From assembly GCF_006715175.1 (NCBI RefSeq), contig NZ_VFMQ01000001.1, positions 3,100,001 through 3,164,000 on the forward strand: a stretch of 64,000 bases of DNA, read 5' to 3'. Positions 8,466 to 40,365 of this stretch are shown here, piece by piece. Numbering within the stretch: position 1 is the first letter of the stretch; the number at the start of each line of letters is the position of its first letter. Made by a program: the position numbers and the translations under genes. The notes beneath the pieces were generated by a model. That model was not told the DNA's origin. It worked only from the letters and a program-made list of their open reading frames with translations, and did not search any database. The DNA comes from Curtobacterium citreum (lineage in GTDB: Bacteria; Actinomycetota; Actinomycetes; Actinomycetales; Microbacteriaceae).

Positions 8466-9644
8466 GTGACCTCCGACCCGACCGACGTCCTCGTGGTGGG
8501 CGGCGGCCCGGTCGGCCTCCTCGCCGCCGTGCTGCTCGCCGCCGAGGGCGTCGACGTGCGCGTCTGGGAACGCCGGAGCACGGCGCCGACGGGCTCGCGG
8601 GCGATCGGCATCCACCCGCCCTCGCTCGCGGTGTTCGACCGGGTCGGGCTCGCCGGTCCCGTCCTGGCCGAGGCGGTCCCCGTCCGCCGCGGGGTCGCGA
8701 CGAGCCGCGGCCGCACCCTCGGGACGCTGTCGTTCGAGCACGTCTCGGACCCGTTCCCGTTCGTCGCCGCGCTCGACCAGCACCGCACCGAGACACTCCT
8801 GCGTGAGCGGCTCGCGGCCCTCGCACCGCACGCCCTCCGCACCGGCACCACGGTCACCGCGCTCCACCCGGGGCGCGGGCACGTCGCCGTCTCCGGCTCC
8901 GGCCCGGACGGCGCACCGGTGCCGGTCCGCGCGCGGTTCGTCGTCGGCGCGGACGGCGCCAGGAGCACCGTGCGCGACCTGCTCGGCATCCGCACCACCG
9001 GCCGGACCTACCCCGAGCACTACGTCATGGGCGACTTCGCGGACACCGGCGACGCCCCGGTGGACACCGCGGTCGTCGACGTCGGCCCCGGCGGCGTCCT
9101 CGAGTCCTTCCCGCTGCCCGGCGGTCGCCGTCGCGCCGTCGCGCTCGTCACCGGCCCGGCCACGCGACCGTCGGGCACCGACGGGACGGAGGCGGGGCGT
9201 GCCTCCCGGCTGGCCGCGCTCGTCCGCGAGCGCACCGGCACGTCCCCCGACCCGGCGACCTGCTCGATGGTGAGTGCGTTCCGGACCCGGCGTCGCACCG
9301 CCGACCGGGTGGGCGTCGGGCGCGTCGTCCTGGTCGGCGACGCCGCGCACGAGATCAGCCCGATCGGCGGGCAGGGCATGAACCTCGGGTGGCTGGACGT
9401 CGCGGCGCTCGCGCCGCTCCTGGCCGACGCGGTCCGCTCCGGTGACGCGGGTCCGTGGCCCGCGTACGCGGCGACCCGGCAGGCGGCCGCGGCGCGCGCC
9501 GCGCGGCAGGCGGAGGCGAACACGGCACTCGGTCGCCCGGCTCGCGGTGCGCTGCTGGTCGGACGGGAGGCACTGCTCCGGTCCGTCCTGGCACTCCCGT
9601 CCGCCAGGTGGCTCGCCTCGACGTACGCGATGGAGTGGGCCTGA
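8466..9644 (+). CDS. FAD-dependent monooxygenase (PHBH/aromatic hydroxylase class)
   Basis: A 392-residue class A flavin monooxygenase. The FAD fold DVLVVGGGPVGLLAAVLLA is at residues about 7-25, the D-G motif VVGADGARSTVRDLLG near residue 160 and the G-D motif VVLVGDAAHEISPIGGQGMN near residue 290. These three motifs define NAD(P)H-dependent hydroxylases and epoxidases of small aromatic or polyketide substrates; no substrate can be inferred. The protein ends ARWLASTYAMEWA, and the DNA for this tail is followed by three degenerate tandem copies of itself. No partner genes surround it. Confidence 0.9.
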   Translation: MTSDPTDVLVVGGGPVGLLAAVLLAAEGVDVRVWERRSTAPTGSRAIGIHPPSLAVFDRVGLAGPVLAEAVPVRRGVATSRGRTLGTLSFEHVSDPFPFVAALDQHRTETLLRERLAALAPHALRTGTTVTALHPGRGHVAVSGSGPDGAPVPVRARFVVGADGARSTVRDLLGIRTTGRTYPEHYVMGDFADTGDAPVDTAVVDVGPGGVLESFPLPGGRRRAVALVTGPATRPSGTDGTEAGRASRLAALVRERTGTSPDPATCSMVSAFRTRRRTADRVGVGRVVLVGDAAHEISPIGGQGMNLGWLDVAALAPLLADAVRSGDAGPWPAYAATRQAAAARAARQAEANTALGRPARGALLVGREALLRSVLALPSARWLASTYAMEWA

Positions 9645-9651
9645 TCGGACC

Positions 9652-9846
9652 GCGTCCGCCAGGTGGCTCGGCTCTGCCCTCCGGACGGTACGCGACGGGG
9701 TGGGCCTGACCGGATCGCGTCCGTCAAGTGGCTCGACTCTGCCCACGGACGGTACGTCGATGGGGTGGGCCTGACCGGATCGCGTCCGCCAGGTGGCTCG
9801 ACTCTGCCCACGGACGGTACGTCGATGGGGTGGGCCTGACCGGATC
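9652..9846 (+). repeat. Three 65-bp tandem repeats derived from the 3' end of the monooxygenase gene
   Basis: Units run 9652-9716, 9717-9781 and 9782-9846 and end with GTGGGCCTGACCGGATC. The second and third differ at only two positions; the first is more diverged. The gene's own last ~54 bases (about 9598-9651: CCGCCAGGTGGCTCG to GAGTGGGCCTGATCGG) look like a related, shorter unit. The array fills the whole gap to the convergent UbiA gene. Confidence 0.9.
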
Positions 9847-9849
9847 GGC

Positions 9850-10761: not shown

Positions 10762-10783
10762 GCGGTCGGGCCCGGATGACGGA

Positions 10784-10822
10784 CGGCCCCTGCGCCGCCG
10801 GGTGTCGACGGTGCAGGGGCCG
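10784..10822 (-). terminator. Terminator of the aldolase-dha-fdhA operon
   Basis: CGGCCCCTGC (10784-10793) and GCAGGGGCCG (10813-10822) are a perfect 10-bp inverted repeat 15 bases past the fdhA stop on the minus strand. No U-run is evident, as is usual in GC-rich actinobacteria. Confidence 0.7.
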
Positions 10823-10836
10823 CTGGGGCCGCCGGG

Positions 10837-12057
10837 TCAGGCCGCGGGGATGAGGCCGTTCGGGTTGAGGACGTACTTCGTCGCCGCGCCCTTGTCGAAC
10901 TCCTCGTAGCCACGCGGGGCCTCGTCGAGGCCGATCGGCTTCGCGTTCACGTTCTTCGCGATGCTCGTGCGGTCGTGCAGGATCGCCATCATCAGCTGCC
11001 GGTTGTACTTCATGACCGGGCACTGCCCCGTCGTGAAGGACAGCGACTTCGCCCAGCCGGTGCCGAGGCTGAGGGACAGGGCACCCTTCTTGGCGGCCTC
11101 GTCGACGCCGCCCGGGTCACCCGTGACGTAGAGCCCGGGGATGCCCAGGGCGCCACCGGCTGCCGTGATGTCCATGAGCGAGTTGAGGACCGTCGCCGGT
11201 GCCTCTTCCCCGGATCCGGCGCCGTGGCCCTTGGCCTCGAAGCCGACGGCGTCGATGCCGCAGTCGACGAGCGGTTCGCCGAGGATCTGGTCGATCTGCT
11301 CGGCGGGGTCGCCCTTCGTCAGGTCGACGGTCTCGCAGCCGAAGCTGCGCGCCTGGGCCAGGCGGTCGGCGTTCATGTCGCCGACGATCACCACGCTGGC
11401 GCCGAGCAGCATCGCCCCGGTCGCAGCCGCGAGGCCGACCGGCCCCGCACCGGCGACGTACACGGTCGAACCGACCTCGACGCCGGCGGTGACCGCGCCG
11501 TGGAAGCCGGTCGGGAAGATGTCGGAGAGCATCGCGAGGTCGAGGATCTTCTCGAGCGCCTGGTCGCGGTCCGGGAACTTCAGCAGGTTCCAGTCGGCGT
11601 ACGGCACGAGGACGTACTCGGCCTGTCCACCGACCCAGCCGCCCATGTCGACGTAGCCGTACGCGCTCCCCGGGCGGTCCGGGTTGACGTTGAGGCAGAT
11701 GCCGGTCTTCCGCTCCTTGCAGTTCCGACAGCGACCGCACGCGATGTTGAACGGGACGGAGACGATGTCGCCGACCTTGATGAACTCGACGTCCGAGCCC
11801 ACCTCGACGACCTCGCCGGTGATCTCGTGACCGAGGACGAGGTCGCTCGGCGCGGTGGTGCGGCCGCGGACCATGTGCTGGTCGCTGCCGCAGATGTTCG
11901 TCGCCACCGTACGGAGGATCGCCCCGTGGTTGACCTTGCGCCCGACGTTCGCCGGGTTCACACCGGGTCCGTCCTTGAGCTCGAACGTCGGGTAGTCGGT
12001 CTCGATGACCTCGACCTTGCCCGGCCCCTTGTACGCGACTGCGTGGTTGCTCGCCAT
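10837..12057 (-). CDS. fdhA: Glutathione-independent formaldehyde dehydrogenase (zinc MDR family)
   Basis: A 406-residue zinc medium-chain dehydrogenase closely resembling Pseudomonas putida FdhA in its long insertions and C-terminus. Catalytic zinc site: TNICGSDQHMVRG (Cys near 55) and GHEITGEVVE (His/Glu near 77). Structural zinc: ACGRCRNCKERKTGIC with four cysteines. Rossmann fold: VYVAGAGPVGLAAATGAMLLG near residue 180. FdhA oxidises formaldehyde to formate with tightly bound NAD and can dismutate aldehydes. It is the last gene of a minus-strand operon after dhaK (93-base gap with GGAGGA before its ATG), which suggests it removes an aldehyde made by the aldolase of the same operon. Confidence 0.93.
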   Translation of the reverse strand: MASNHAVAYKGPGKVEVIETDYPTFELKDGPGVNPANVGRKVNHGAILRTVATNICGSDQHMVRGRTTAPSDLVLGHEITGEVVEVGSDVEFIKVGDIVSVPFNIACGRCRNCKERKTGICLNVNPDRPGSAYGYVDMGGWVGGQAEYVLVPYADWNLLKFPDRDQALEKILDLAMLSDIFPTGFHGAVTAGVEVGSTVYVAGAGPVGLAAATGAMLLGASVVIVGDMNADRLAQARSFGCETVDLTKGDPAEQIDQILGEPLVDCGIDAVGFEAKGHGAGSGEEAPATVLNSLMDITAAGGALGIPGLYVTGDPGGVDEAAKKGALSLSLGTGWAKSLSFTTGQCPVMKYNRQLMMAILHDRTSIAKNVNAKPIGLDEAPRGYEEFDKGAATKYVLNPNGLIPAA

Positions 12058-12150
12058 GTGATCCTCCTCGATCGTCGGCGTCGGGACACCCGCGGTCGCG
12101 GGCGTCCTGTGTGGGAGCCGTCGGCGGGCGGGGTGGTGCCCGCCGACGGG

Positions 12151-13146
12151 TCAGAACGTGCGGATCGGGATCTCGGCGGGGGCGGCGAGGAGCTCCTTGA
12201 CCTCGTCGTCGAGCTTCACGAGCGTGATCGAGGCGCCGGCCATGTCGAGCGAGGTGCAGTACTCGCCGACGTAGCTCCGCACGGGGGTGATGCCCTGCGC
12301 GACGAGCTTCTCGTGCGCGATCCCGTAGAGCAGGTAGAGCTCGCTGATCGGGGTGCCGCCGAGTCCGTTCACCATGAGCGCGACCTCGTCGCCGTCGGAG
12401 AAGGGCAGGTCGGACACGATCGGGTCGAGCAGGATGTCGACGATCTCGTCCGCCGGGACGATCTTCTGCCGTGCGCGTCCGGGTTCACCGTGGATGCCGA
12501 CGCCGACCTCGATCTCGTCGTCGCCGAGTTCGAACAGCGGCGAGCCCTTGGCGGGCGGGGTGCACGCCGTGAGGGCGACGCCCATGGTCCGGGTCACCGA
12601 GTTGACCTTCTTCCCGACCCGGACGACCTCGTCGAGGTCGGCGCCGGCCTCGGCCGCGGCGCCGACCGCCTTGATCACGAAGAAGTTCCCGGCGACGCCA
12701 CGACGGCCGATCGTGTACGTGGAGTCCTTCACGGCGACGTCGTCGTCGATGAACAGGGTCGCGACCGTGATGCCCTCGGCCTCGGCGAACTCCTCCGCCA
12801 TCTCGAAGGCCATCTTGTCGCCCGTGTAGTTGTTGACCAGCAGGAGCACGCCCTTGGGGCTGTTCACCCGGCGGGCGGCCTCGATGACGTAGTCGGTCGG
12901 CGGCGCGGCGAACACGTCCCCGGGGCAGGCCGCGTCGAGCATGCCCTTGCCGACGACCATGACGTGCGCGGGCTCGTGCCCGGAGCCGGACCCCTGGACG
13001 ATCGAGACCTTGTCGTCGCGCGGGGCGTCGGCGCGGACGATCAGGTTCGCCTTCGGGTCGTAGGTCAGGGTGTCGGGGTTGGCGAGGGCCAGACCCTTCA
13101 GCATGTCCGGGACGAACTGCTTCGGGTCGTTGACGAACTTCTTCAC
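12151..13146 (-). CDS. dhaK: Dihydroxyacetone kinase subunit DhaK
   Basis: A 331-residue DhaK. QGSGSGHEPAHVMVVGKGML (residues 51-70) is the substrate pocket loop and VGVGIHGEPG carries His219, which forms the covalent hemiaminal bond to the ketone of dihydroxyacetone in the family (His218 in E. coli). DhaL is encoded 83 bases upstream. No DhaM phosphotransfer subunit is present nearby, so the phosphoryl donor (PTS or ATP) is open. The family also includes kinases for C4 ketoses such as erythrulose; the neighbouring aldolase and formaldehyde dehydrogenase make such a substrate conceivable. Confidence 0.93.
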   Translation of the reverse strand: MKKFVNDPKQFVPDMLKGLALANPDTLTYDPKANLIVRADAPRDDKVSIVQGSGSGHEPAHVMVVGKGMLDAACPGDVFAAPPTDYVIEAARRVNSPKGVLLLVNNYTGDKMAFEMAEEFAEAEGITVATLFIDDDVAVKDSTYTIGRRGVAGNFFVIKAVGAAAEAGADLDEVVRVGKKVNSVTRTMGVALTACTPPAKGSPLFELGDDEIEVGVGIHGEPGRARQKIVPADEIVDILLDPIVSDLPFSDGDEVALMVNGLGGTPISELYLLYGIAHEKLVAQGITPVRSYVGEYCTSLDMAGASITLVKLDDEVKELLAAPAEIPIRTF

Positions 13147-13229
13147 TGCGGTTGCCTCACTTCATCGTGGTGGTCGGGTACTGCGAAGGGTCGTGCTGGT
13201 GGGGGCGGATCGGATCTGGTCGGCTCGCG

Positions 13230-13859
13230 TCACCACTCGTCGGCGATACGCTCCGCGAGCACCGCGACGGCGACCGCGCCGGGGTCGGGCGAGCCGATGC
13301 TGCGCTCCCCCGTGTACGACGCACGCCCACGGCGGGCCTCGAGCGCCGAGGTCTCGTCCGCTGCCTGGCGTGCGACCTCGGCGGCGTGTCGGGCGATCGC
13401 GGCGCCGTCCCGGCCGTCCGCCGCGTCGGACTCGATCGCGTCGGTCATCGGGACGATCGCGTCGAGGAGCGTCTTGTCGCCGAGGTCGGCGCCACCGCGC
13501 TTCTTGATCCCCTCGACCGCGGCGCGGAGCATCGCCACGACGTCCTCTGCGGTCAGGTCGTCCTTGCCCTTGACGACCCCGGCCGCCCGCAGGAACGCGG
13601 TGCCCCAGATCGGACCCGACGTCCCGCCGATGCGGCTGCTCATCGTCATCGCGACCTGCTGCAGGAAGGTCCCCGGGTCCGACCGGTCGTAGTCGTCGAA
13701 CCCGGCGAGCACGTTCTCGAACCCGCGGGCGAGGGAGTAGCCGAAGTCGCCGTCGCCGGCCACCGCGTCGAGGTCGCAGAAGTACCGCTCGTTCTCGACG
13801 CAGGTGTTCGCGATGAGCCGCACGGTGGACTCGAGGTGGGTGGTGGCTTCGGTGGTCAT
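13230..13859 (-). CDS. dhaL: Dihydroxyacetone kinase subunit DhaL
   Basis: A 209-residue nucleotide-binding subunit. DLDAVAGDGDFGYSLARG supplies Asp31, Asp36 and Asp38 for Mg-ADP binding (the usual GDGDHG reads GDGDFG), followed by MTMSSRIGGTSGPIWG and GADLGDKTLLDAIVP, all typical DhaL motifs. The ATG at 13859 overlaps the stop of the HAD gene (ATGA), so translation is coupled. DhaL transfers phosphate to the ketose held by DhaK. The length of about 210 residues is normal for a stand-alone DhaL. Confidence 0.93.
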   Translation of the reverse strand: MTTEATTHLESTVRLIANTCVENERYFCDLDAVAGDGDFGYSLARGFENVLAGFDDYDRSDPGTFLQQVAMTMSSRIGGTSGPIWGTAFLRAAGVVKGKDDLTAEDVVAMLRAAVEGIKKRGGADLGDKTLLDAIVPMTDAIESDAADGRDGAAIARHAAEVARQAADETSALEARRGRASYTGERSIGSPDPGAVAVAVLAERIADEW

Positions 13860-14638
13860 CGTCGTCCTCCGGTCGGGAGCTGGGTGAGGGTGTCGAGGGT
13901 CACCCGTCCGGGCACCTCGACGTGGTGGGGGTCCGCGAGCACGTGTGCCGGCTCGTCGGGCAGGTCGCCGAGCCGGTCGACCACGAGCGCCGCGCCGGTG
14001 AAGTCCTCGTCGGCCGTGTAGCTGCTGACGGTGACGACCGTGGTGAGTCCGGCGCCGAGCGCTGCCCGGAGCCCGTTCGCGCTGTCCTCGACGACGACCG
14101 CATCTGCCGCGGTGACGCCGAGCTCCCGGAGCGCCAGCTCGTACACGTCGGGCGCGGGCTTCTTGCGCGGGACGACGTCGCCCGCGAAGACCGCGAACCA
14201 GTCGGCGGCGTCCTCGCCCACGGCGTGCTCGAGCACCGCGCGGACCGACGCCTCGGCCGAGGTCGAGGCCACCGCGAGCAGCCAGCCCGCGTCGTGTGCC
14301 TCGTGCACGATCCTGGCGATGCCGGGCCGCCCGGGCATCACCCCCTCGCGGACCATCGCGGTGTACCGCCGGGTCTTCTCGGCGTGCCACTCGGCCACCA
14401 GGGCCCGCTGTTCCTCGGGATCGGTCGGTAGGCCGGCGCGCTCGACGAACTCCGGCGTCAACAGGGACGCCAGCCGCTCCTTCCCGCCGCCGATCCTGAG
14501 CACCTCGGCGTAGTCGTCCTGGCTCCACCGGACCGGCAGGTCGAAGTGCTCGAACGTCTGGTTGAACGCCGGCAGGTGCCCGTCGCGCTCGGTGTCGGCG
14601 AGCACGCCGTCGCAGTCGAAGACGAGCGCGCGGGTCAC
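13856..14638 (-). CDS. HAD-superfamily sugar-phosphate phosphatase, CbbY-like
   Basis: A 260-residue HAD subfamily I protein. Motif I is LVFDCDGVLADTE (Asp8 nucleophile, Asp10), followed by the cap segment GHLPAFNQTFEHFDLPVRW that is characteristic of CbbY, a xylulose-1,5-bisphosphate phosphatase; motif II is LAVASTSAE, and motif III/IV are VPRKKPAPDVYELAL and VVVEDSANGLRAAL. The GTG at 14638 overlaps the aldolase stop (GTGA). In this operon it could remove phosphate from a dead-end bisphosphate or ketose-1-phosphate made by the aldolase and kinase. Exact substrate unknown. Confidence 0.87.
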   Translation of the reverse strand: MTRALVFDCDGVLADTERDGHLPAFNQTFEHFDLPVRWSQDDYAEVLRIGGGKERLASLLTPEFVERAGLPTDPEEQRALVAEWHAEKTRRYTAMVREGVMPGRPGIARIVHEAHDAGWLLAVASTSAEASVRAVLEHAVGEDAADWFAVFAGDVVPRKKPAPDVYELALRELGVTAADAVVVEDSANGLRAALGAGLTTVVTVSSYTADEDFTGAALVVDRLGDLPDEPAHVLADPHHVEVPGRVTLDTLTQLPTGGRR

Positions 14639-15498
14639 GACCGACCGGCCTTGCCGTCCGCGCCGAACCACGTGACGTGCTCGGCGATGACGTCGGTGAC
14701 GGCGGACTCGATCGCGGTGACGAGCTTCGGCGGGTCCCAGCTGTCCGTCGCCCGTGCCTGTTCGAGGTGCTCGAGCGAGGCGCGCATGTACGCGTGCTTC
14801 ACCGCGGTCGAGATGTTGATCTTCGACACCCCGGCGTCGATGAACGACCGGAAGTCGTCGCGGCTCAGCCCCGTGCCGCCGTGGAGCACGATCGGCCGGT
14901 CGGTCAGGGCGGCGAGCTCGGCGGCGCGCTCGGGCAGCAGCACCGGGTCCGCCTTGTACAGTCCGTGGCTCGTGCCCAGCTGCGGCGCGAGCAGGTCGCT
15001 GTCGGTCCGCTCGGCGACCTCCGCCAGTTGCTCGACCGAGTACGCGTGCCGGGACTCGTCGCTGCCCACGCCGTCCTCGACCCCGAGGATGTTCTCGATC
15101 TCCGACTCGACGTCCACCCCGGCGGCGTGCGCCGCGGCGGTGACCTCGGCGGTTTCGCGGACCGCGTCGTCGAACCCGCGGTCGGACGCGTCGAAGAGCA
15201 CGCTGGACCACCCCGCGGCGATGACGTCGTCGAGCACCGCCCGGTCCGGACAGTGGTCGAGGTGCAGCGCGACCGGCACCGGGACGTCCCGGGTGAGCGC
15301 GCGGAACAGGTCGGTGGTGAAGGCGGTCCCGGAGGCCTTCACGGTCTTCACGGAGATCTGCACGACGAGCGGCGCCCCGGTCCGGACCGCCGCGGCGATC
15401 ACCGCCCGCATGCTCAGCTCGTCGAACACGTTCACGGCCGGTACGGCGTACCCGCCGTCCCGTGCGGTCCTGGTCAACGTCCTGGTGGACACGTCCAT
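14635..15498 (-). CDS. Class II (zinc) ketose-bisphosphate aldolase
   Basis: A 287-residue protein of the fructose/tagatose-bisphosphate aldolase family. PVALHLDHCPD holds the catalytic Asp81 and zinc ligand His82; VESEIENILGVEDG is the acidic loop; GTSHGLYK (His178) and VLHGGTGLS (His206) complete the zinc site; VSKINISTAVKHAYM is the DHAP-phosphate loop. Enzymes of this family split ketose-1-(bis)phosphates into DHAP plus an aldehyde. It is the first gene of a five-gene operon with DhaKL, a phosphatase and formaldehyde dehydrogenase, which argues for a specialised catabolic substrate and not glycolytic fructose-1,6-bisphosphate. Confidence 0.9.
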   Translation of the reverse strand: MDVSTRTLTRTARDGGYAVPAVNVFDELSMRAVIAAAVRTGAPLVVQISVKTVKASGTAFTTDLFRALTRDVPVPVALHLDHCPDRAVLDDVIAAGWSSVLFDASDRGFDDAVRETAEVTAAAHAAGVDVESEIENILGVEDGVGSDESRHAYSVEQLAEVAERTDSDLLAPQLGTSHGLYKADPVLLPERAAELAALTDRPIVLHGGTGLSRDDFRSFIDAGVSKINISTAVKHAYMRASLEHLEQARATDSWDPPKLVTAIESAVTDVIAEHVTWFGADGKAGRS

Positions 15499-15562: not shown

Positions 15563-15591
15563 ACTGTACCTGTCTAGACCGGACTCGACAA
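15563..15591 (-). promoter_or_regulatory. Promoter of the aldolase operon with embedded GntR operator
   Basis: On the minus strand TTGTCG (15591-15586) and TACAGT (15568-15563) are separated by 17 bases. The palindrome GTCTAGAC at 15572-15579, which fits the GT-N(3-6)-AC form of HutC/UTRA-type GntR operators, lies inside the spacer. A bound regulator would block RNA polymerase. The divergent gntR gene starts at 15641. Confidence 0.7.
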
Positions 15592-15640: not shown

Positions 15641-16378
15641 GTGGTCGACGAGGTGGACCGCGACTCCGCCGTGCCCATCTACCAGCAGCTCGAGGACATC
15701 TTCACGGCGAAGATCGCGAGCGGCGAGTGGGCGCCGAGCCAACGGATCCCGTCCGAGAACGAGTTGAACCGGCACTACGGGACCAGCCGGATGACGGTGC
15801 GCGGCGTCCTGACGAAGCTGACCACCGACGGCGTGCTCCACCGGGTCCCCGGCAAGGGCACGTTCGTCGCGCCCGAGAAGATCAGCGCGGTCTCCCCGGC
15901 GTACCGCGGCATCCGCGAGCAGCTCGAGGTGCTCGGCTACGACATCACCACGACGCTCGTGTCGATCGACCGGGCCCCGGCGCCAGCCCGCATCCGGGAC
16001 CGCCTGGGCCTCGGCCGCACCGACGACGTCTTCGCGATCGTCCGGCTGCGGTCCGTCGACGGCAAGCCCCTCAGCGTGCACCGGTCGTTCGTCCCGGCGG
16101 CCCTCGCGCCCACCCTCGACGCGCTGGACGTCGTCGAGGAACAGCTCTGCGTCGTGCTCGAGGACGCCTTCGGCCTGGCGATGCACGACGTCGCGGAGGG
16201 GCTCGAGGCCGTCGCCGTGGCCGAGGCCGACGCCGGGCTGCTCGGCCTGCGTCGGGGCGACCCGGCGCTGCAGCTCACCGACGTCATCGCCGACCGGGCC
16301 GGGACGACGTTCGAGTACTCGACGATCGTGTTCCGTGGCGACCGGATGCGGCTGCAGTTCGACTACACGCGCCCCTGA
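15641..16378 (+). CDS. GntR-family regulator with UTRA domain
   Basis: A 245-residue HutC-subfamily regulator. The winged helix is residues about 8-75 (PIYQQLEDIFTAKIASGEW, then IPSENELNRHYGTSRMTVRG, GVLHRVPGKGTFVA); the UTRA ligand domain (about 95-240) ends with the usual FEYSTIVFRGDRMRLQFDY. GTG 15641 follows AGGAGG. The gene is divergent from the aldolase-HAD-dhaLK-fdhA operon and a GTCTAGAC operator sits in that operon's promoter, so it is the likely local regulator responding to a sugar or sugar phosphate. Its 3' end overlaps the convergent EamA gene by 16 bases. Confidence 0.93.
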   Translation: MVDEVDRDSAVPIYQQLEDIFTAKIASGEWAPSQRIPSENELNRHYGTSRMTVRGVLTKLTTDGVLHRVPGKGTFVAPEKISAVSPAYRGIREQLEVLGYDITTTLVSIDRAPAPARIRDRLGLGRTDDVFAIVRLRSVDGKPLSVHRSFVPAALAPTLDALDVVEEQLCVVLEDAFGLAMHDVAEGLEAVAVAEADAGLLGLRRGDPALQLTDVIADRAGTTFEYSTIVFRGDRMRLQFDYTRP

Positions 16379-39361: not shown

Positions 39362-40365
39362 TCGGCGGTCTCCTCCGGTCGGACGGCACCCGCTCCGGGT
39401 GCCTCCGTTCCTTCGGAGCGGAGCAGGTGCGCGCCTGGTCCGGTGCCGGACTCGATGACGTCTCCCAGGTCGGCGAGGGCGGCCGCGACGGCGCCGCGGT
39501 CCTCGGGCGTGGTGAGCACGACGACGTTCGGGCCGGCGTCGGCCGTGGCGTACGCGGTCAGCCCGTCGGCACGGAGTCCGGCGACGGCGTCGAACACGGC
39601 GACGCTGCGGGCGTTCAGGTAGCGGATCGGCGGGAACGCGCCCTCGATGGTGGCGTGCATACGGAGCGCGTTGCTCTCGGTGAGCTCGCCGATGCGGGCG
39701 AAGTCCCCGGCGGCGCACGCGGCGAGCATGTCGTCGACGGTGGCCGTGGTCGACTCGACCCACGCCGGGTAGAACGGCGAGGTCGCGATCGTGCGGCGCA
39801 TCGCCTCGCGCGACCCGATCGCCTTCTCGCCGGCCGAGATCGTCACGACGACCATCGCCATCGGCGGCGCGGGGACGCGCTCGGCGAACGACGCCTGGTC
39901 GTCGCCAGCGTGCCACACCGCGACGCCGCCGGGGATCGACCGGGTGGCGGAGCCGGAGCCGCGACGGGCGAGCCGGGACAGGTCGCGCTCGGACAGGTCG
40001 AGCCCGTACGCGGCGGCCGCGGCCGTCGCGAGCGCCGCGAAGCCCGACGCGCTCGACGCCAGCCCGGCGCCGGTCGGGACGGTGTTCTCCGACACCACCG
40101 CGGCGTGCACGGACGACCCCGCGGCCTGGCGCACGAGGTCGAGGAACTGCTGCACGCGGAGCAGGGCGCCGTCCGGGGCCGCGCCGCCGTTCAGCACGAG
40201 CGAGTCCGCCGCCGCGGCACCGTCGAGCGTGACGGTGGTGGTCGTCGGGAACACGTCGAGGCCCATCGACACGCTGCCCGTGGCCGGGAGGGCGAGCTGC
40301 GCGTCGGCCTTGCCCCAGTACTTCACGAGCGCGATGTTGGGGTGCGCGACGGCGGTGGCGGTCAT
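39358..40365 (-). CDS. mvaD: Diphosphomevalonate decarboxylase
   Basis: A 335-residue GHMP enzyme making isopentenyl diphosphate. It begins VAHPNIALVKYWGKADAQLALPA, has TVPTGAGLASSASGFAAL (phosphate loop), RRGSGSATRSIPGGVAVW and MVVVTISAGEKAIGSREAM, and ends with AYATADAGPNVVVLT; these are the decarboxylase hallmarks, including the Asp-Ala-Gly-Pro-Asn site. ATG 40365 shares one base with the mevalonate kinase stop (TGATG). Confidence 0.95.
   Translation of the reverse strand: MTATAVAHPNIALVKYWGKADAQLALPATGSVSMGLDVFPTTTTVTLDGAAAADSLVLNGGAAPDGALLRVQQFLDLVRQAAGSSVHAAVVSENTVPTGAGLASSASGFAALATAAAAAYGLDLSERDLSRLARRGSGSATRSIPGGVAVWHAGDDQASFAERVPAPPMAMVVVTISAGEKAIGSREAMRRTIATSPFYPAWVESTTATVDDMLAACAAGDFARIGELTESNALRMHATIEGAFPPIRYLNARSVAVFDAVAGLRADGLTAYATADAGPNVVVLTTPEDRGAVAAALADLGDVIESGTGPGAHLLRSEGTEAPGAGAVRPEETAE

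Follow-up and report, generated by a model that had tools for sequence, protein, structure and literature searches.

A conserved aldolase, CbbY-type phosphatase and DhaKL cassette in Curtobacterium citreum and related bacteria, with a possible role in pentose phosphate synthesis

Introduction

Which pathway is served when a class II aldolase, an HAD phosphatase and the DhaL and DhaK subunits of a dihydroxyacetone (DHA)-type kinase are encoded side by side? The question is raised by a locus of Curtobacterium citreum that lies in a stretch of 64,000 nucleotides, hereafter the window, covering 3.10-3.16 Mb of a 3.61-Mb single-contig genome. Five genes follow one another at this locus, the last of them encoding FdhA, a glutathione-independent formaldehyde dehydrogenase, and a gene for a GntR-type regulator diverges from the aldolase gene. 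An initial annotation read the whole row as a single pathway: DhaKL would phosphorylate erythrulose, the aldolase would cleave erythrulose 1-phosphate into dihydroxyacetone phosphate (DHAP) and formaldehyde, and FdhA would oxidise the formaldehyde.

We report that the conserved unit comprises four genes (aldolase, HAD phosphatase, DhaL and DhaK), not five. We suggest that it might build pentose phosphate: DHAP and a short aldehyde phosphate would be joined to form xylulose-1,5-bisphosphate (XuBP), from which xylulose 5-phosphate would be released, with DhaKL supplying one of the two partners. We put the probability of this reading at roughly 40%. If it holds, three generic annotations (fructose-bisphosphate aldolase, HAD hydrolase and dihydroxyacetone kinase) are united in one pathway.

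Four genes are kept together

A search of 199 genomes of the family Microbacteriaceae with the aldolase gave a match at E <= 1e-60 in 22. Thirteen of these 22 loci, together with the 80 loci listed out of 264 in a wider genome collection, make up the 93 loci examined here. All were selected through their aldolase, with flanks of up to about 9 kb that are shorter where a contig ends; they include some repeats (L030 and L045 are one record, as are L032 and L085, and L051/L053 lie on one contig). The HAD gene adjoins the aldolase gene on the same strand in every one of the 93, and a DhaK of at least 70% identity is encoded downstream in 59. Among the matches listed, the closest named relatives are Curtobacterium, with aldolases 86-92% identical.

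The reverse test, starting from DhaK, gave a match at E <= 1e-130 in 14 of 394 class-level genomes: 11 newly examined, two examined before, and that of the window. The order aldolase-HAD-DhaL-DhaK is found in all 14, as is the NNYTGD motif of DhaK. Since seven of these genomes belong to one genus, the effective number of lineages is smaller than 14. The conserved content and order of the first four genes rule out a chance arrangement. The ketose-phosphate module first proposed, in which a dedicated GntR regulator accompanies an aldolase, a CbbY-like phosphatase and DhaL/DhaK, is supported. As for conservation of the entire gene set in other actinobacteria, the four genes do stay together, but FdhA is adjacent in only 3 of the 93 loci. 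The four-gene set was not described in the titles and abstract openings listed from open-licence PMC literature, which is not proof of its being unpublished.

Two record titles fit poorly with the loci they head, and mislabelling or mis-binning is likely in both: L119, titled Vibrio cholerae, carries a cassette resembling Arthrobacter loci, and L048, titled Spirochaetota, shares gene order and spacing with L049 of Tessaracoccus.

The phosphatase is of the CbbY type

Against solved structures, the HAD protein matches Arabidopsis CbbYA (4uav, E = 1.5e-61) and R. sphaeroides CbbY (4uar, 3e-45), the next entry standing at 6.1e-11. It is 47% and 45% identical to these two proteins, which are 41% identical to each other. 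All 92 cassette HADs carry the motif GG[KR]ER, which is absent from the 1468 other proteins called in the examined loci, 22 other HAD-like proteins included; the CbbY cap residues (GGKER, His85 and Lys88) are invariant in all 92, and the catalytic residues are present. On sequence grounds, the protein belongs to the CbbY type. A YqaB-type or house-cleaning phosphatase was considered and rejected, since the E-value of the CbbY match is lower by some 50 orders of magnitude.

CbbYs are presented, in the part of PMC10212915 available to us, as highly specific XuBP phosphatases that take the C1 phosphate from XuBP. According to the same excerpt, plant CbbY fusions did not act on xylulose 5-phosphate or ribulose 5-phosphate, and XuBP was made from DHAP and glycolaldehyde phosphate in an aldol addition (PMC10212915). 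The invariance of the cap residues suggests that a bisphosphate substrate has been kept in the cassette enzyme. Furthermore, because CbbYs are described as acting on the C1 phosphate of a bisphosphate, a C1 kinase and this phosphatase working on the same ketose would form a futile pair, a point against the initial annotation.

The known CbbYs dealt with in that excerpt (PMC10212915) come from plants, algae and autotrophs among the bacteria that carry cbb genes, whereas the cassette phosphatase travels with an aldolase and DhaLK. A search for Rubisco (PF00016) gave no match in the genome of the window, and none in 34 of the 35 DhaKL-type genomes tested; XuBP arising from Rubisco is therefore not the reason for the presence of CbbY there.

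The aldolase differs from known class II enzymes

The cassette aldolase shares the PF01116 family and the zinc ligands with the class II fructose-bisphosphate (FBP) and tagatose-bisphosphate aldolases (FbaA, GatY, KbaY), and is set apart from both by score. It falls under the curated cut-off of all 20 NCBIfam models listed, among them TIGR01859 (213.9 against 343.05), TIGR01858 (171.2 against 443.55) and the subfamily model TIGR00167 (202.4 against 215.6), and has invariant motifs of its own, for instance HLDHCPDR and ESEIEN. An ordinary FBP aldolase was rejected on these scores and because a second PF01116 gene lies at 1.02 Mb in the same genome. His82, His178, His206, Glu131 and Glu133 are invariant in a 26-row alignment and, one gap at His82 apart, in 92 rows. 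In a tree of 92 aldolases, that of the window falls in a group of 37, all linked to DhaKL save one case at a contig end. Further groups hold 23 sequences (mostly from the other context described below) and 26 (mostly DhaKL); one deep node is unsupported.

FBP aldolase binds the distal phosphate of its substrate through the Arg of a DPR motif. Pro257 takes the place of this Arg as seen in two solved FBP aldolases, and the 61 DhaKL-linked aldolases carry Pro (59), Leu (1) or Val (1) there; a third solved relative, 8q57, likewise does without it. Loss of this Arg throughout the group favours an alternative in which the aldolase would use an unphosphorylated aldehyde and make or cleave a ketose 1-phosphate. 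A drifted HAD would then remove the phosphate to yield a free ketose, in detoxification or rare-sugar metabolism, with DhaKL either supplying DHAP from DHA or phosphorylating the ketose. An engineered combination of DHA kinase, DHAP aldolase and fructose-1-phosphatase does make dendroketose, as the portion of PMC6202814 at hand describes. A phosphatase whose CbbY cap residues are invariant in 92 of 92 sequences, and which would thus seem to have kept its bisphosphate substrate, argues against this alternative, which we regard as rather unlikely.

A possible route to xylulose 5-phosphate

We infer both the substrates and the direction of the cassette from its protein families. In the route that we favour, the class II aldolase would condense DHAP with the phosphate of a short aldehyde, in all likelihood glycolaldehyde phosphate if any, to give XuBP. 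The CbbY-type phosphatase would remove the C1 phosphate and so pull the reaction forward, and the resulting xylulose 5-phosphate would enter the pentose phosphate pathway; it is the phosphatase that suggests synthesis as the direction. DhaKL would phosphorylate a small carbonyl, glycolaldehyde or DHA, and thereby provide one of the two aldolase partners. The most novel version of this reading, and a rather unlikely one, is a natural, carbon-conserving assimilation of glycolaldehyde, in which a DhaK-family glycolaldehyde kinase, a XuBP aldolase and CbbY would make xylulose 5-phosphate from glycolaldehyde, DHAP and ATP.

Were the route real, CbbY would gain a metabolic role independent of Rubisco, which would explain its occurrence in genomes without Rubisco, and a range of actinobacteria would carry a dedicated, carbon-conserving path from a toxic C2 aldehyde (or DHA) to pentose phosphate. 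Parallels exist among pathways in which aldolases fix DHA or aldehydes of one or two carbons, to judge from the accessible text of each source: the erythrulose monophosphate (EuMP) cycle, designed and called 'new-to-nature' (PMC10733421), the dendroketose pathway (PMC6202814) and the synthetic glycolaldehyde assimilation (GAA) pathway, also designed (PMC9214030). Unlike those designed pathways, the cassette occurs in nature as a conserved gene set, and its route probably passes through a bisphosphate.

Several observations weigh against the proposed synthesis of xylulose 5-phosphate. Plant CbbY fusions also released the C1 phosphate from ribulose 1,5-bisphosphate (PMC10212915, in part). The lost Arg could equally mean that the aldehyde is unphosphorylated; a free ketose would then follow as the product, and this is the weak point of the reading. 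No glycolaldehyde gene marks the neighbourhoods of the cassette. The same aldolase-CbbY pair also stands with a RuBisCO-like protein in another context. Finally, the count of pentose-phosphate neighbours, which in itself favours the route, had no formal control: a gene for RpiB, a split transketolase or a transaldolase/FSA-like protein lies in the same stretch in 10 of 61 DhaKL-type loci, families being assigned from one representative each.

Parts of transketolase were found in 5 of these 61 loci, and none by the window's cassette. An HbpS-like gene is close in 17 of the 61, again with no formal control. In the large genomes of the class-level set, the two genes that follow DhaK lend no support: judged by eye, they resemble RNase PH and an RdgB-type diphosphatase, not enzymes of the pentose phosphate pathway.

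These neighbourhoods bear on a further alternative, a formaldehyde assimilation resembling the xylulose monophosphate (XuMP) pathway of yeast. A transketolase-type enzyme would convert formaldehyde and xylulose 5-phosphate to DHA, DhaKL would produce DHAP, and the aldolase and phosphatase would regenerate sugar phosphates. Such a scheme would account for a DHA kinase, an aldolase and a phosphatase standing together, for the split transketolase and RpiB in the stretches of L047, L048, L049 and L065, and for the nearby FdhA of Curtobacterium. It is nonetheless improbable, given that the window's cassette has no linked transketolase, that pentose-phosphate genes occur in so small a share of the loci, and that the Lys of DHA kinases is missing from nearly all cassette DhaKs, as set out next.

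The genome encodes three kinases of the DHA type

The two subunits resemble those of DhaK-DhaL DHA kinases: both score over the cut-offs of their models (TIGR02363 and TIGR02365), and DhaK keeps His57, Asp110 and His219, which are present in 63 of 63 members of its cluster. The difference lies in residue 105, which is Asn in 60 of the 63; Lys occupies that place, before the NYTGD motif, in E. coli DhaK and in the genome's own DhaKLM. The three exceptions, with Leu, are probably the DhaKs of L083, L084 and L100, at 47-50% identity. Judged by this residue pattern, the cassette DhaK is a distinct subfamily.

The cassette is also without DhaM. The initial annotation was correct to find none in the operon, and the DhaM of this genome (TIGR02364, 125.4 bits) belongs to a separate DhaKLM (L156) beside genes that by eye are glpK- and glpF-like. 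At about 2.857-2.864 Mb of the same genome (L155:4181-11119) lies a cluster encoding a SorC/DeoR-type regulator, a GolD/DthD-type short-chain dehydrogenase/reductase, a Zn-alcohol dehydrogenase, an RbtT-type transporter, a fused DhaKL and an RpiB-type isomerase, the last scoring below the cut-off of the DerI model. Its gene content makes a function in tetritol/erythrulose use probable. The cassette DhaKL is thus the third DHA-kinase-type kinase of this genome; with a DhaKLM beside glpK/glpF-like genes and a fused DhaKL in a tetritol-type cluster, it seems to us the poorest candidate of the three for a role with tetruloses or with DHA derived from glycerol.

The tetritol/erythrulose kinase of Mycolicibacterium smegmatis is of the DhaK type. 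This is what the cassette has in common with the M. smegmatis pathway, of which PMC12780249 gives an outline in the part available; the matching gene set in C. citreum, however, is the 2.86-Mb cluster, with its fused DhaKL and RpiB-type isomerase, outside the window. An erythrulose or tetritol role of the cassette was rejected, since that cluster fits such use better.

FdhA is a neighbour in one genus

All three loci with FdhA downstream of the cassette are from Curtobacterium. Across 66 genomes of this genus, FdhA is found in 16 and the aldolase in six; FdhA lies close downstream of the cassette in all six, so that the two are associated within the genus. This is the best evidence for the initial annotation, though shared descent may explain it. 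Ten of the 16 FdhA-bearing genomes have no aldolase: FdhA is followed by a UbiA gene in five, as in the window, with no cassette, and lies elsewhere in the other five, beside what by eye is likely a lysyl-tRNA synthetase gene. Among 35 DhaKL-type genomes, 18 have an FdhA over the curated TIGR02819 cut-off and 17 have none; within the stretches examined, it is beside the cassette in four of the 18 (the window, L041, L042 and L043).

The 93-nt gap between DhaK and FdhA folds at -55.8 kcal/mol (z = -5.56, with 0 of 200 shuffles as good), a second hairpin standing behind a 12-bp stem; the DhaL-DhaK gap has no comparable fold (z = 0.75). The hairpin has no T run, and a consensus terminator scan of the gap found no terminator. 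A 9-bp core of the stem recurs in genome G245, after an apparent HbpS-type open reading frame (ORF) between DhaK and FdhA; L042 also has an HbpS-type ORF (cluster c7) at this place. As the corresponding gap holds no stem of at least 7 bp in L041, L042, L043, L152 or L153, the hairpin is not general. Another strong hairpin lies 3' of FdhA (window 10762-10836; -49 kcal/mol, z = -4.61) and is possibly the end of the FdhA transcript.

The distribution of FdhA (3/93 loci adjacent, 10/16 Curtobacterium FdhA genomes without aldolase, 17/35 cassette genomes without FdhA over the cut-off), together with the hairpin, led us to reject it as a conserved working part; it would appear to be a neighbour that works separately from the cassette. 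The same figures count against the release and oxidation of formaldehyde that had been proposed. LerK, an L-erythrulose 1-kinase, is a DhaK-type kinase. The erythrulose reading can draw on the use of LerK and of formaldehyde-using DHAP aldolases in PMC10733421 (from an excerpt), on Curtobacterium isolates obtained from D-erythrose and L-erythrulose enrichments (PMC12780249, in part), and on the six cassette-bearing Curtobacterium genomes. It is nevertheless very improbable: the FdhA linkage was seen in one genus only, where FdhA often occurs without the aldolase, the hairpin intervenes, CbbY is left without a role, and tetritol use is matched by the 2.86-Mb cluster with its dehydrogenase, RbtT-type transporter, fused DhaKL and RpiB-type isomerase. 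Moreover, the single Curtobacterium tested further, Ery-28b, grew on D-erythrose and showed no significant growth on L-erythrulose, according to the available part of PMC12780249, whose authors state there that tetrose transporters and kinases 'remain enigmatic'.

A second context of the aldolase-CbbY pair

Of 16 genomes with the other context, 12 have a Rubisco-family match (PF00016). One of these matches was examined and is an MtnW-like RuBisCO-like protein scoring below the MtnW cut-offs; each of the six genomes mapped has a relative of it at the PF00016 match. L083 was counted with this context despite its DhaK at 50% identity. The gene set is a composite, of which each locus holds part (L031, L085/L159-L160, L091/L161, L092/L162, L108/L163, L074/L164 and L083/L165): the MtnW-like protein, a Cof-type HAD, a 314-aa protein, GlpK-like kinases, GlpD-like and G1P-dehydrogenase-like enzymes, a phosphoglycolate-phosphatase-like HAD, an XylB-like kinase, a protein like triose-phosphate isomerase (TIM), and 2-oxoacid dehydrogenase-type E1/E2 (with E3 in one). 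By its gene content, it looks like a separate, undescribed pathway. The TIM-like gene falls below the TIM cut-offs, and among its PDB matches ten ordinary TIMs rank ahead of an L-erythrulose-1-phosphate isomerase. A sugar transporter made of clusters c21, c24 and c27 was rejected, c21 being the RuBisCO-like protein and c27 the Cof-type HAD.

Regulation and layout of the locus

The pattern GTNTANAC occurs in 18 of the 28 intergenic regions that border a divergent GntR gene, against 0.84 expected from mononucleotide shuffles; the other 10, some close relatives among them, lack it. The 14-base palindrome CCGGTCTAGACAGG, with at most one mismatch allowed, matches a single place in the genome, between the GntR and aldolase genes. 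A backward control pattern gave 3 and 2 genome matches, and single palindrome matches of this quality therefore arise by chance. The divergent GntR probably acts at this one candidate palindrome. Near the cassette, regulators of the GntR type were found in 32 of the 61 DhaKL-type loci and of the GAF-LuxR type in 17.

The five genes and the divergent GntR gene named initially are all present, as family profile matches and coordinates confirm (Table 1). The description of three junctions as overlapping or close was slightly generous: aldolase-HAD and HAD-DhaL overlap by 4 bp each, and the DhaL-DhaK and DhaK-FdhA junctions are gaps of 83 and 93 bp.

Table 1. Features of the cassette and its surroundings, with positions in the window
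Feature	Position	Strand	Basis
Class II aldolase (PF01116), distinct subfamily; proposed ketose-1,n-bisphosphate (XuBP) aldolase	14635..15498	-	PF01116, 243.1 bits
CbbY-type HAD phosphatase; proposed xylulose-1,5-bisphosphate 1-phosphatase	13856..14638	-	PF00702, 81.9 bits; CbbY type from solved-structure matches
DhaL (Dak2) kinase subunit	13230..13859	-	TIGR02365, 180.9 bits against cut-off 138.3
DhaK (Dak1) subunit, distinct subfamily with Asn105	12151..13146	-	TIGR02363 (DhaK1), 424.6 against 406.25
FdhA, glutathione-independent formaldehyde dehydrogenase; judged a neighbour outside the conserved cassette	10837..12057	-	TIGR02819, 744.8 against cut-off 636.95
GntR/UTRA regulator, divergent from the aldolase gene	15641..16378	+	PF00392 and PF07702
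Candidate palindromic operator, CCGGTCTAGACAGG as read on the minus strand, in the GntR-aldolase intergenic region	15569..15582	.	GTNTANAC in homologous intergenic regions
Hairpin with 12-bp perfect stem, directly 3' of the DhaK stop; possible transcript end	12117..12149	-	Folding energy

Elsewhere in the window, a tandem array with a 65-bp unit (3.5 copies, 91% matches) lies between two convergent genes at 9623-9847, and the only tRNA found, tRNA-Pro (cgg), is at 39495-39591, with a given length of 97 bases.

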